Positions 25,640 to 30,328 of a DNA stretch of 49,725 bases are shown here, piece by piece. The position numbers were made by a program, and so were the translations under genes. Where the stretch lies: the NCBI GenBank assembly GCA_009377835.1, contig WHTG01000002.1, positions 1 through 49,725 of the forward strand, read 5' to 3'. The stretch's first letter is position 1. Each line of letters begins with the position of its first letter. Below the pieces are notes generated by a model that was given only the letters and a program-made list of their open reading frames with translations, was not told the DNA's origin and ran no database searches. This DNA comes from Nitriliruptorales bacterium (GTDB lineage: Bacteria; Actinomycetota; Nitriliruptoria; Euzebyales; Egibacteraceae).

Positions 25640-26359
25640 ATGACGGATGCGGTTGTCGTATCACAGCTGGTCGTTGTGCGCGGCGGACAGCAGGTGCTGC
25701 ACGGGCTGGACTGGACGATCCCCGCGGGCCAGGTAGTGGGCCTGCTGGGCCCCAGCGGCAGCGGGAAGACGACTGTGCTTCGCTGCATCGTCGGTGTCCA
25801 GCGGATCCGTTCAGGTGCGGTCACTGTGCTCGGACGGCCCGCGGGTGATCCGCAGCTGCGCGGCACCGTGGGGTACATGACGCAGGCACCGGCGGTCTAC
25901 GAGGACCTCTCCGTCGTCGACAATCTGGCGTACGGCGCGCGCGTTCTCGGTCTTGGGACCAGCAGGGTGGACGAGGTGGTCGACCAGGTCGACCTTGCCG
26001 GACGGCGCCGTCAACTCGTACGCACGTTGTCCGGCGGGGAGCGGTCACGGGTGTCGCTGGGCTTCGCACTGCTGGCCGAGCCGCGGGTTGCGGTGCTTGA
26101 CGAGCCCACGGTGGGGCTGGATCCGGTCCTGCGCGCCTCGCTGTGGGACCTTTTCCACTCGCTCGCGAGCGCCGGCACGACGCTGCTGGTGTCCACTCAT
26201 GTGATGGACGAGGCCGAACGCTGCGACCGCTTGCTGCTACTGCGCGATGGCCTCGCACTGGCCGACGGATCACCGCAGGACCTGCGCGACAGTACCGGCA
26301 CCCCCACCATCGAGGAGGCGTTCCTCGCTCTTGCTGTGCATGGGACGGTGGCCGCATGA
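25640..26359 (+). CDS. ABC transporter ATP-binding protein (ABC-2 export type)
   Basis: 239 residues. Walker A GPSGSGKTT (37-45), ABC signature LSGGERSR, Walker B VAVLDEPTVGLDP and the H-loop STHVMDEAERC are all present. It powers the permease encoded next, with which it overlaps by 4 bp (ATGA). Together they form a DrrAB/ABC-2 style drug or lipid exporter, controlled by the TetR gene that follows. The ATG at 25640 gives a start at the first beta strand; the longer frame reaches into the operator region and is not credible. The substrate is not known. Confidence 0.9.
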   Translation: MTDAVVVSQLVVVRGGQQVLHGLDWTIPAGQVVGLLGPSGSGKTTVLRCIVGVQRIRSGAVTVLGRPAGDPQLRGTVGYMTQAPAVYEDLSVVDNLAYGARVLGLGTSRVDEVVDQVDLAGRRRQLVRTLSGGERSRVSLGFALLAEPRVAVLDEPTVGLDPVLRASLWDLFHSLASAGTTLLVSTHVMDEAERCDRLLLLRDGLALADGSPQDLRDSTGTPTIEEAFLALAVHGTVAA

Positions 26360-27093
26360 CTCCCGCCCGGACGTTCGCCACCACACACCGCGTGCTGCGA
26401 CAGCTGGCCGCCGATCCCCGTAGCGTGATGCTCCTGCTGGCCGTCCCCGCGCTCCTGCTGTGGCTGCTCGACATCGTCTACCGGCAGCGGCCCGCTTCCT
26501 TCCAGGCGGTGGGCATCCCGATCTTCGCGATCGCACCGTTCATCGGCATGTTCCTGGTGACGTCCGTGACCGTCCTTCGCGAGCGCCGTAGCGGAACGCT
26601 GGAGCGCCTGTTGACGACGCCGTTGGGAAAGGCCGATCTGCTTCTGGGTTACCAGCTCGCGTTCGGCCTCGTCGCGATCGCGCAGGTCCTTGTGTTGACG
26701 CTGCTCGCCCTCGGCCCGTTGGACCTGACGTTCGCCGGACCACCCTGGATGGTCGGCGTGGTCGGCGTGCTCGACGCGCTCTTGGGATCCGCTCTGGGGC
26801 TGTTCGCCAGTGCTTTCGCTGCGAGCGAATTCCAGGCGGTCCAGTTCTTGCCGGCGCTGGTCTTCCCGCAACTCATCCTGGGCGGGGTGCTCGCCCCGAC
26901 CGACGAACTGCCGCGTGCGTTGCAGTACGTCTCCGACCTGCTGCCGCTCACCTACGCGCTCGAGGCGGTTCGCACCGTCGCCACCGAGACGGCCGTGGAC
27001 TCAGGATTGTGGGCGGATGTCGGCGTCGTGGCGGGGACGGTCGTCCTTGCCGTGGCGTTGGGCGCGGCGACCCTACGGCGGCGCACAGCGTGA
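26356..27093 (+). CDS. ABC-2 type transporter permease
   Basis: 245 residues with about six membrane helices. VTVLRERRSGTLERLLTTPLGKADLLLGY is the conserved ABC-2 coupling-helix region, and the last third (LVFPQLILGGVLAPTDELP, then LPLTYALEAVR) is also typical. It pairs with the ATPase whose stop overlaps its start. Its own stop overlaps the TetR GTG (GTGA, 27090-27093). The three genes are a single coupled unit. Confidence 0.9.
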   Translation: MTPARTFATTHRVLRQLAADPRSVMLLLAVPALLLWLLDIVYRQRPASFQAVGIPIFAIAPFIGMFLVTSVTVLRERRSGTLERLLTTPLGKADLLLGYQLAFGLVAIAQVLVLTLLALGPLDLTFAGPPWMVGVVGVLDALLGSALGLFASAFAASEFQAVQFLPALVFPQLILGGVLAPTDELPRALQYVSDLLPLTYALEAVRTVATETAVDSGLWADVGVVAGTVVLAVALGAATLRRRTA

Positions 27094-27668
27094 GCCCGAG
27101 CGGCCGCCGGCCGGGAACCACCCGCACCCGCGAAGCCATCCTGGCGGCCGCGCGCGCAGCCTTTGCGGCGAGGGGCTACACCGCCGCGTCACTGCGACAG
27201 GTGGCGTCCGACGCCGACGTCGACGCGGCCCTTGTCATGCACTACTTCGGCTCCAAACGCGGCCTGTTCGCCGCCGCGATCGGCATGCCTGTGGACGTCG
27301 ACGGCCTCCTCGACCAGCTCCGTGACGGACCGGTGGACACCCTCGGCGAGCGACTCGCCCGGTTCTACCTCCGGATGATCGACGCGCCGAGCAGCCCCGT
27401 CGTCGCACTCCTGCGTTCGGCCGCGTCAGACGACGAGGCCGCACGAATGGTGCGGGAGTTCATCAGCCAGGAGGTCATCGCGCGACTCGTCGACACGCTC
27501 GACGTACCCGACGCCGCGCTTCGTGCCACGCTCGTCGGAACGCAACTGGTTGGGATGGCCGTCCTGCGGCGAGTCGTCGGCGTGGAGCCGCTGGCTTCCG
27601 CCCGGCCCGAGGTCGTGCTGGCCTGGGTCGGGCCCACGGTGCAGCGCTACCTCACCGGCGCCGTGTAG
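27090..27668 (+). CDS. TetR-family repressor of the ABC exporter
   Basis: 192 residues from a GTG overlapping the permease stop. TREAILAAARAAFAARGYTAASLRQVA and ALVMHYFGSKRGLFAAAI make the TetR helix-turn-helix. The C-terminal effector domain resembles the TetR_C_17-like group found with ABC-2 exporters. It most likely binds the palindrome at 25562-25579 and represses its own operon until an exported compound binds. This is inferred from context. Confidence 0.88.
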   Translation: MSPSGRRPGTTRTREAILAAARAAFAARGYTAASLRQVASDADVDAALVMHYFGSKRGLFAAAIGMPVDVDGLLDQLRDGPVDTLGERLARFYLRMIDAPSSPVVALLRSAASDDEAARMVREFISQEVIARLVDTLDVPDAALRATLVGTQLVGMAVLRRVVGVEPLASARPEVVLAWVGPTVQRYLTGAV

Positions 27669-27788: not shown

Positions 27789-28484
27789 TCAGTCGAACAG
27801 CACGTCCAGCGCCTGCCGCTCGAGGTCTGTCCATCGCCGGACGTGGCCCCGGACCTCCTCGACCTCCTCCTCATCCAGGTGGTCAGTCCCGTCGGGCGTG
27901 ATACGGCAGACGTCGACAGGGCCGCCGACACTGGGTGCCGTTATCCGCAATGCATCGATCACCCGGACCGCACCCACCACGCCGTACGACACCGACCGCT
28001 CGGTCATCCGGAAATGCGCCAGCAACGCCCCGGCTTGCTGCGCCATCGCCGCGCCGCTGCCCACCGCGTGGAAACCGATGTCCTCGTACCGGCTCACCAT
28101 GCCGTTGGGATTGATCTCGATGATGAACGGCCGACCATGGGCGTAGCCGGCTGTCAGCACATACGCCGAAGGCGTACCCGCGGTGTCCTCGCCCGGGATG
28201 TGCTCGATGAAGTTGTCGTAGTGGTGGCGCAGGACCGGTACGACGAACCGCTGCAGCGCCCGGTCGACATCCGCGGAATCCAGTATCACACCTGCCGAAT
28301 CCCGGAAGCCCTCCTCCAGTTCCGCCAACACCCCTCGCGCGCCGCTGCCGCCCCAAGCGGCGTGATCGCCGAGCGGGTGCAGCTTCTGCGCCGGGTAGCT
28401 CATGCCGCGGCCGCTGTCGGTGATCTGCGAGTCGGAAGCCATGACCAACCCATCGTCGCAGCGGATGGACAAGACAACGGTCAT
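27789..28484 (-). CDS. Proteasome-family Ntn hydrolase (beta-subunit-like), no propeptide
   Basis: 231 residues. The N-terminus reads MTVVLSIRCDDGLVMASDSQ. After Met removal, Thr becomes residue 1, and Asp17 and Lys33 (the catalytic D17/K33 of 20S beta subunits) fall exactly in place; VGSGAAMAQQ supplies the later Ser/Gly loop. Ordinary beta subunits need a cleaved propeptide, but here the Thr is exposed directly. No alpha subunit, Mpa or Pup gene is nearby, so this is a separate proteasome-like lineage. It begins 24 bp downstream of the DrrB-like permease on the same strand and may be in its operon. Substrate and oligomer are unknown. Confidence 0.8.
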   Translation of the reverse strand: MTVVLSIRCDDGLVMASDSQITDSGRGMSYPAQKLHPLGDHAAWGGSGARGVLAELEEGFRDSAGVILDSADVDRALQRFVVPVLRHHYDNFIEHIPGEDTAGTPSAYVLTAGYAHGRPFIIEINPNGMVSRYEDIGFHAVGSGAAMAQQAGALLAHFRMTERSVSYGVVGAVRVIDALRITAPSVGGPVDVCRITPDGTDHLDEEEVEEVRGHVRRWTDLERQALDVLFD

Positions 28485-28508
28485 CGCAGGCTCCGGCGAG
28501 GGTCGCTT

Positions 28509-29345
28509 CTAATGAAGGTTGCGGAACCGCCGCATCGTAAGAGGCCCGAAGACCGCGACGAACACGGCGGACATCAGCAAGATGATGCCGATCTGCGATG
28601 ACGTCGCCGTGCCGTGCATGAGACCCCGGATGGCCGTCACCAGATGCGTGATGGGATTGAGCCGCACGGCGACCTGCAACCAGCCGGGCATCGTTTCCGG
28701 ATCCACCAACACGTTGCTCATGAACGTCAGCGGGAACAGGACCATCATGCTGGCGTACATGACTGACTCAGGCTTGCGCATGACCAGACCGAAGAGCGTC
28801 CACAACCACGACAGGCTGAAGCAGAAGATCAGCAGGAGCCCGACGGCGAGCAGGATGCCGACCACGCCGGCTTTCGGCCGAAAGCCGAGCGCCAGCCCGA
28901 GCACCAGCATGATCGCCGACGCCAAGGAGTAACGCAGCGCATCGCCCAACAGCGCACCGACGATGACCGACGGCTGCCAGATGGGCAGGGAGCGGAAGCG
29001 GTCGAACACCCCCTTCGTGATGTCGTTGTTCAAACCCATGCCGGTGTACATCGTGATCATCGTCACGGTCATTACGAGGATCCCGGGCAGGACGAACTGC
29101 AGGTAGTCCCCCGTCGATCCGGCCAGGGCACCGCCGAAAATGTAGGTGAACAGCAGCAGGAACATGATCGGAAACATCGTCACGTCGAACAGCTGCTCGG
29201 GAACGTGCTTGATCTTGAGCAGCGCTCGCCAGCCGAACGTCAGGGACGCCGACAGCGACGAGACCGGTGTCGGCCGCTCGCCGATCGACAGCGTCGAACG
29301 GACAGCGTCCTCGGCCAGTGGCTGCGGTGCGGTGGTCGTGGTCAT
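28509..29345 (-). CDS. DrrB-like ABC-2 permease
   Basis: 278 residues with six membrane helices after a 45-residue soluble N-terminus. [20 protein letters not shown] and [15 protein letters not shown] form the conserved ABC-2/DrrB coupling region, and [20 protein letters not shown] is the typical signature near the last loop. Its ATG overlaps the ATPase stop (ATGA, 29342-29345). The pair is a daunorubicin-resistance-type exporter, which in actinobacteria moves drugs, lipids or siderophores. The frame extends upstream to 29792 but that part is antisense to Walker-motif coding sequence. Confidence 0.9.
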
Positions 29346-30328
29346 GCCGCGTCCTCCTCGGTTGCGTCGCGGCGCTCCTCCGCCGGGTGGCCCGTCAGGG
29401 CCAGGAAAACCTCGTCCAGGCTCGGCTGTCCAAGCGCGAAGTCGGTAACCGCCATGCCCGAACGCGCCAGGTCCGCCAGTGCGTACGCGACCTGCTCGGC
29501 GTCCGCGACGGTGGCCGACAGCGCGGTCGGATCGCCTTCGAGATGGACCGGTGCGGACAGGGCCGCCGACAACAACTGCTCGGCCTCGGCTCGCTGGAAC
29601 GGATCCTGCAACCGCACCCGCAGCGTGCCTCCGCCGACCTGCGACTTCAGGTCGCTGCTCGTGCCCTCGGCGATGACCTTGCCGTTGTCGATCACGGCGA
29701 TCCGGTCGGCGAGCTGGTCGGCCTCGTCGAGGTACTGGGTGGTGAGCAGCACCGTCGTCCCCTCGGCGACCAACGCGCGCACGATGGCCCACACCTGGCT
29801 GCGGCTGCGCGGGTCCAGGCCCGTGGTCGGCTCGTCGAGGAACATCAGGTCGGGTGTGACGACCAGGCTGGCGGCGATGTCGAGGCGACGGCGCTCCCCG
29901 CCGGAGAAGGTCTTGACCTGCCGGCCGGCGGCATGGGCGAGTCCGAAGGCATCCAGCAGCTCGGCGGCCCTGCGCTTTGACTCAGGCCGGGTACGGCCGA
30001 GCAGTCGCGCCAACAGGATCAGGTTCTCGGCGCCCGTGAGGTCCTCGTCGACCGACGCGAATTGACCGGTCAGGCTGACGCGTCGGCGGACCTCCGCACC
30101 GTGAGTAGCGACGTCGTGTCCGAGGACCCGGGCGGTGCCGGCGTCCGGCTTGAGCAGCGTCGCGAGCATACGCATGGTCGTCGTCTTGCCCGCGCCGTTC
30201 GGGCCGAGGAACCCGTACACGCCACCCTGACGTACGGCGAGGTCGACGCCGTCGACGGCTCTGACGTCGCCGAAGTGCTTGACCAGGCCGGACGCCTCGA
30301 TCGCGAGATCAGGTTGCACCGTGTTCAC
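29342..30328 (-). CDS. DrrA-type ABC transporter ATP-binding protein
   Basis: 328 residues. Walker A is [15 protein letters not shown]-loop [19 protein letters not shown], signature [14 protein letters not shown], Walker [17 protein letters not shown]. The C-terminal 90-residue domain ([12 protein letters not shown] to [14 protein letters not shown]) is specific to the DrrA family. The GTG at 30328 overlaps the TGA of the frameshifted SRPBCC gene upstream (GTGA, 30325-30328), so the ATPase was once third-base coupled to that gene. Expression may now depend on another start or promoter. Confidence 0.92.

Follow-up and report, generated by a model that had tools for sequence, protein, structure and literature searches.

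A proteasome-like Ntn hydrolase encoded next to an ABC exporter in a Nitriliruptorales genome: its gene, its neighbours and its relatives

The window considered here, a stretch of 49,725 nucleotides from the genome of a Nitriliruptorales bacterium (contig WHTG01000002.1), carries a gene for a proteasome-like Ntn hydrolase immediately behind the genes of an ABC exporter. The arrangement raises several questions. Is the enzyme correctly assigned? Does it work with the exporter, or with the 20S proteasome of the same cell? If it does neither, to which of the known proteasome-like families does it belong, and do its relatives indicate a function?

The gene occupies 27789..28484 on the minus strand and encodes 231 residues; the assignment draws on the open reading frame, a match to the Pfam profile PF00227 (E 4.2e-10, 40 bits compared with a curated cut-off of 22.4), a predicted model and 75 homologues. 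Translation begins at an ATG at 28484 and the protein starts MTVVLSIRCDDGLVMASDSQITDSGRGMSYPAQKLH. An in-frame stop lies nine codons before this ATG with no other start in between, and a Shine-Dalgarno-like GGAG (28491..28494, minus strand) is placed six bases 5′ of it. Such a motif precedes 72 of 75 family genes. The plus-strand frame over the same interval was considered and is not the hydrolase gene. All 75 homologues begin at Met-Thr, using ATG in 64 cases and GTG in 11, and none carries a propeptide.

Four residues, all specified on the minus strand, are in register with T1, D17, K33 and G47 of the proteasome-like hydrolases. These are Thr2 (codon 28479..28481), which would become the Thr1 nucleophile after removal of the methionine, Asp18 (28431..28433; Asp17), Lys34 (28383..28385; Lys33) and Gly48 (28341..28343; Gly47, the oxyanion hole). 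Each is invariant in 75/75 homologues and in 61/61 aligned rows, the latter including 20S beta, HslV and Anbu sequences, and the match is therefore far beyond chance. The initial annotation had assigned the first three residues and described a proteasome-like hydrolase lacking a propeptide; both statements are borne out, and no homologue has lost any of the three.

Beyond these positions the family has strong conservation of its own around the active site, at Q20, H36, W44, G46 and R50. Counting the methionine, Arg50 (position 49) is invariant and His36 (position 35) nearly so. In 20S beta, positions 49 and 35 belong to the S1 pocket, and the Arg and His found there weakly suggest a preference for acidic P1 residues. 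With respect to the 20S support residues, Ser129 aligns with S143 (Ser in 38 of 40 family rows) and Ser169 with S185 (mostly Ser), and at Asp166 each of the 40 family rows examined has Thr or Ser. Judged from the alignment, the Ser129-Asp166-Ser169 network is only partly kept.

The structure comparison proposed in the initial annotation was carried out on an AlphaFold (AF2) model with mean pLDDT 93.2 and pTM 0.90, built from a 61-row alignment that took in distant homologues together with 20S beta, HslV and Anbu rows. A model from 11 family rows alone was poor (pLDDT 50). The model comprises strands S1-S12 and helices H1-H5, with S12 at residues 199-202 and a long H5 at 205-230, and both model and fold search place the protein among beta-sandwich folds with flanking helices. 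The best solved structures in Foldseek are the mycobacterial and rhodococcal 20S beta subunits (E 9e-14 to 2e-13, TM 0.73-0.77), with Anbu also close (TM about 0.74 to 5nyg). Sequence profiles ranked archaeal 20S beta first, 20S beta chains reaching E 1e-13, and the HslV match spans only the N-terminal 63 residues. Profile-profile comparison with hhalign gave E 1.6e-11 for 20S beta, 3.6e-4 for HslV and 0.08 for Anbu.

The exporter had been suggested as a possible partner. A DrrB-like ABC-2 permease of 278 residues (28509..29345, minus strand; PF01061, E 2e-27) is preceded by its partner, a DrrA-like ABC ATPase of 328 residues (29342..30328, minus strand; TIGR01188, 366 bits compared with a cut-off of 312). 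As first described, the permease ends at 28509, 24 bp upstream of the hydrolase start and on the same strand, with the GGAG motif in the gap; a scan for terminator-like sites between the two genes found none. On the other side, the plus-strand interval 25640-27668 holds a second pair of ABC ATPase and ABC-2 permease genes and, behind it, a TetR-type regulator (27090..27668; PF17920 and PF00440), convergent with the hydrolase gene.

This geometry invites the view that DrrA, DrrB and the hydrolase form a functional operon, in which the hydrolase would process or degrade the exported compound or act on the exporter itself. Comparison across genomes speaks otherwise. The neighbours of the hydrolase are unrelated from genus to genus, an outcome that the initial annotation had itself named as refuting. 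Examples are a methyltransferase (Euzebyales), a sucrase/ferredoxin-like protein (Mycobacterium), a zinc-type dehydrogenase (Frankiaceae) and an FAD oxidoreductase (Mesorhizobium). A hydrolase-exporter pair occurs at only 3 of 74 loci; the other two, where an ABC-2 exporter lies within two genes of the hydrolase, upstream in Micromonospora radicis and downstream in a member of Euzebyales, may be counted in favour of an operon, but the exporters and the gene order differ. ABC ATPases are found at 6 of 284 positions within two genes of the hydrolase as against 3 of 421 farther out (Fisher p 0.17). In seven relatives that carry an orthologue of this exporter (59-67% identity) the hydrolase follows in none, and three relatives (G004, G028 and G030) hold the hydrolase and the exporter on separate contigs. 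Given the random neighbourhoods, the orthologues with no hydrolase behind them and the separate contigs, the linkage is judged accidental. We reject the operon as adjacency is not conserved, and regard a functional tie between exporter and hydrolase as very unlikely. The suggested connection between export and proteolysis finds no support, the exporter genes being chance neighbours, and a tempting false lead is removed.

Could the hydrolase instead serve the proteasome? The initial annotation noted no alpha subunit and no Pup machinery here. That is correct for the neighbourhood searched, where neither an alpha subunit nor a Pup gene was found, but not for the genome. Another contig (C237, locus L026:1856-6321) encodes a 20S beta with propeptide, a 20S alpha, a Dop/PafA-like protein and a Pup whose sequence ends in GGE, so that alongside the window hydrolase the organism possesses a canonical Pup-proteasome. 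The presence of 20S alpha and beta would allow the hydrolase to be a second type of beta subunit that joins the canonical particle. However, the hydrolase has no propeptide and scores 18.4 bits against the 20S beta equivalog TIGR03690, well below the cut-off of 191.9. What decides the matter is that the alpha-proteobacterial hosts of the family have HslV, and some have Anbu, with no 20S matches in their genomes. The family is therefore independent of the 20S proteasome, an accessory 20S subunit is rejected, and we consider such a role most improbable. What emerges is a propeptide-free enzyme whose active site is strictly conserved whether or not the host has a 20S proteasome. In Pseudonocardia humida (G428, locus L126) a second 20S-beta-like gene was observed away from the usual alpha-beta pair.

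Homologues are present in 11 of 61 genomes related to that of the window, its own included, and ten of these eleven are 56-73% identical to the window protein. A pattern scan of GTDB genomes, which reaches close relatives only, returned 71 loci, all from Actinomycetota (among them Micromonospora, Pseudonocardia, Mycobacterium, Blastococcus and Euzebyales) or from alpha-proteobacteria, mainly Rhizobiales. In a random draw of Pseudomonadota the family appeared in a single genome, the draw's own centre, so it is rare in that phylum. The tree recovers the family as one clade with support of 96, in which the alpha-proteobacterial members are nested among actinobacterial ones, near Micromonospora and Frankiaceae. 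Such nesting fits horizontal transfer and suggests one transfer between the phyla. Within Micromonospora the surroundings (loci L033-L056) differ in nearly every species though the proteins are close, and the gene therefore seems to move within the genus. Family queries matched nothing among 50,697 phage records and nothing in viral contigs, and on the phage side there was only a remote match to phrog_1040. An origin from phage or plasmid was rejected, searches of both having given no matches.

The gene context of the window hydrolase is ordinary; the more interesting arrangement lies among its distant relatives. Five actinobacterial genomes (loci L101-L105) encode homologues with 22-30% identity to the window protein, all immediately downstream of a gene whose product has about 145 residues. 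One pseudomonadotal genome shows the same order, with an integrase next to the pair (L143), as do five IMG/VR contigs (L164-L167 and L169). The partner gene is thus immediately upstream of the hydrolase gene at all 11 informative distant loci, the viral locus L168 being left out as the contig end cuts it. The pairs lie at L101:1483-2615, L102:1432-2694, L103:214-1346, L104:1024-2250, L105:1067-2184 and L143:1076-2250, and from 4001 to about 5200 in each of the five viral contigs. The bacterial pairs were found through the hydrolase and the viral pairs through the partner, and both directions yield the pair. Some pairs adjoin an integrase, a Type ISP restriction enzyme or a nucleotidyltransferase-HEPN gene. 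Next to remoter relatives of the partner, in viral contigs L170-L175, no hydrolase was detected, and the pairing therefore holds for this subtype only. In a Pseudomonadota draw the partner is rare, its only strong match being the paired locus.

The partner weakly resembles SocA/Panacea proteins (PF13274, E 0.011; NF047745, E 0.05). In Caulobacter, SocA serves ClpXP as a proteolytic adaptor, and many toxins are neutralised by Panacea domains (PMC8832971). Neither HslV nor Ntn hydrolases are mentioned in the main text there. A literature search found no description of a module that combines a SocA/Panacea-like protein with an Ntn hydrolase, and we report this two-gene module as new. The partner is a real context clue and makes a function testable.

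Does the window family descend from such a module, as a regulated protease whose partner has been lost or replaced? The constancy of the pair among the distant loci and an hhalign score of E 2e-36 between the window family and the distant homologues, as against 2e-11 to 20S beta, point that way. Set against this, a search of 11 family genomes, that of the window included, found the partner gene in none, and the deep part of the tree has long, poorly resolved branches, the distant bacterial forms not making a single clade. We hold this descent to be possible rather than probable. With the same reserve, the window protein might have branched off, without the partner, from a mobile pair of genes whose SocA/Panacea-like product controls a proteasome-like threonine protease or supplies it with substrates. 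If true, the pair would amount to a toxin-antitoxin or adaptor-protease module whose effector is of the proteasome type.

For the window protein itself we consider the likely reading to be a proteasome-beta-like threonine Ntn hydrolase that stands alone, belongs to a kind described before and lies next to the exporter by accident. It is probably self-activating, a putative oligomeric peptidase that needs no dedicated ATPase. Methionine aminopeptidase would remove Met1 and so expose Thr1 as the nucleophile with no autocatalytic processing of a propeptide. Lys33 and Asp17 would assist Thr1 and Gly47 would supply the oxyanion hole. Contacts through helices H1-H4 and through the long H5 at the C-terminus might join subunits into a closed or split ring, which would cut peptides or unfolded proteins with no ATPase of its own. 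The predicted fold, the T/D/K/G active site and the start at Met-Thr are established; peptidase activity, oligomerisation and loss of the methionine are inferred.

A different chemistry has also to be weighed. Connectase, a ligase built on a proteasome-like fold (PMC8665760), sets a precedent, and the window enzyme could be a specific processing enzyme, an amidase or a connectase-like ligase instead of a degradative peptidase; the family-specific residues around the active site, the replacement of Asp166 and the lack of an ATPase partner would all be in keeping with this. On the other hand, the best matches are to 20S beta. Connectase shares with the hydrolase the fold and a stand-alone gene but lacks H1/H2 and has a two-helix insertion (PMC8665760), whereas the model has H1/H2 and no insertion. 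We regard a non-degradative role as somewhat unlikely, and return to the stand-alone peptidase and its place among known systems.

The 20S beta subunit, bacterial (PrcB) or archaeal, has the same fold and catalytic residues and gives the best structural and profile matches. The hydrolase differs in the lack of a propeptide and of an adjacent alpha gene, both of which the true 20S beta of the same genome has, in an identity of about 20% and in Asp166, which is not kept. HslV shares the threonine nucleophile, Asp17 and Lys33, but is about 175 residues long and has no H5; separate HslV genes occur in the same alpha-proteobacteria as the family, and the score against the HslV equivalog TIGR03692 is 15.3 bits, below 157.75. 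Anbu has the Met-Thr start and the long H5 in common with the hydrolase but its profile match is not significant, and some hosts have separate Anbu genes. Identity with 20S beta, HslV or Anbu is rejected, on the TIGR cut-offs for the first two and the hhalign E of 0.08 for Anbu.

Propeptide-free relatives of this kind were already described in 2021, when Fuchs, Alva and Lupas reported 22 new proteasome-like families that all lack a propeptide and an informative gene context, most of them of unknown function (PMC8665760). A paper search found no later characterisation. Judged from the class descriptions, the hydrolase fits one of two of them, WPH (widespread proteasome homologue, representative WP_040339656.1) or AAH (representative WP_035979212). 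The host range given by the name AAH, alpha-proteobacteria and actinobacteria, matches all 71 loci, and neither AAH nor the window family has a propeptide. AAH belongs with the compact subunits of group I, described without S12/H5, and is found in many phages (PMC8665760), whereas the hydrolase model has S12 and H5 and the window family has no phage matches. WPH is alike in its proteasome-like fold, T1/D17/K33/G47, lack of a propeptide, long C-terminal H5 and presence in Proteobacteria and Actinobacteria; the class extends to archaea and PVC bacteria (PMC8665760), and the scan for the window family, which reaches close relatives only, found it in two bacterial phyla. On these descriptions the predicted S12 strand and H5 helix, together with the absence from phages, suit WPH better than AAH.
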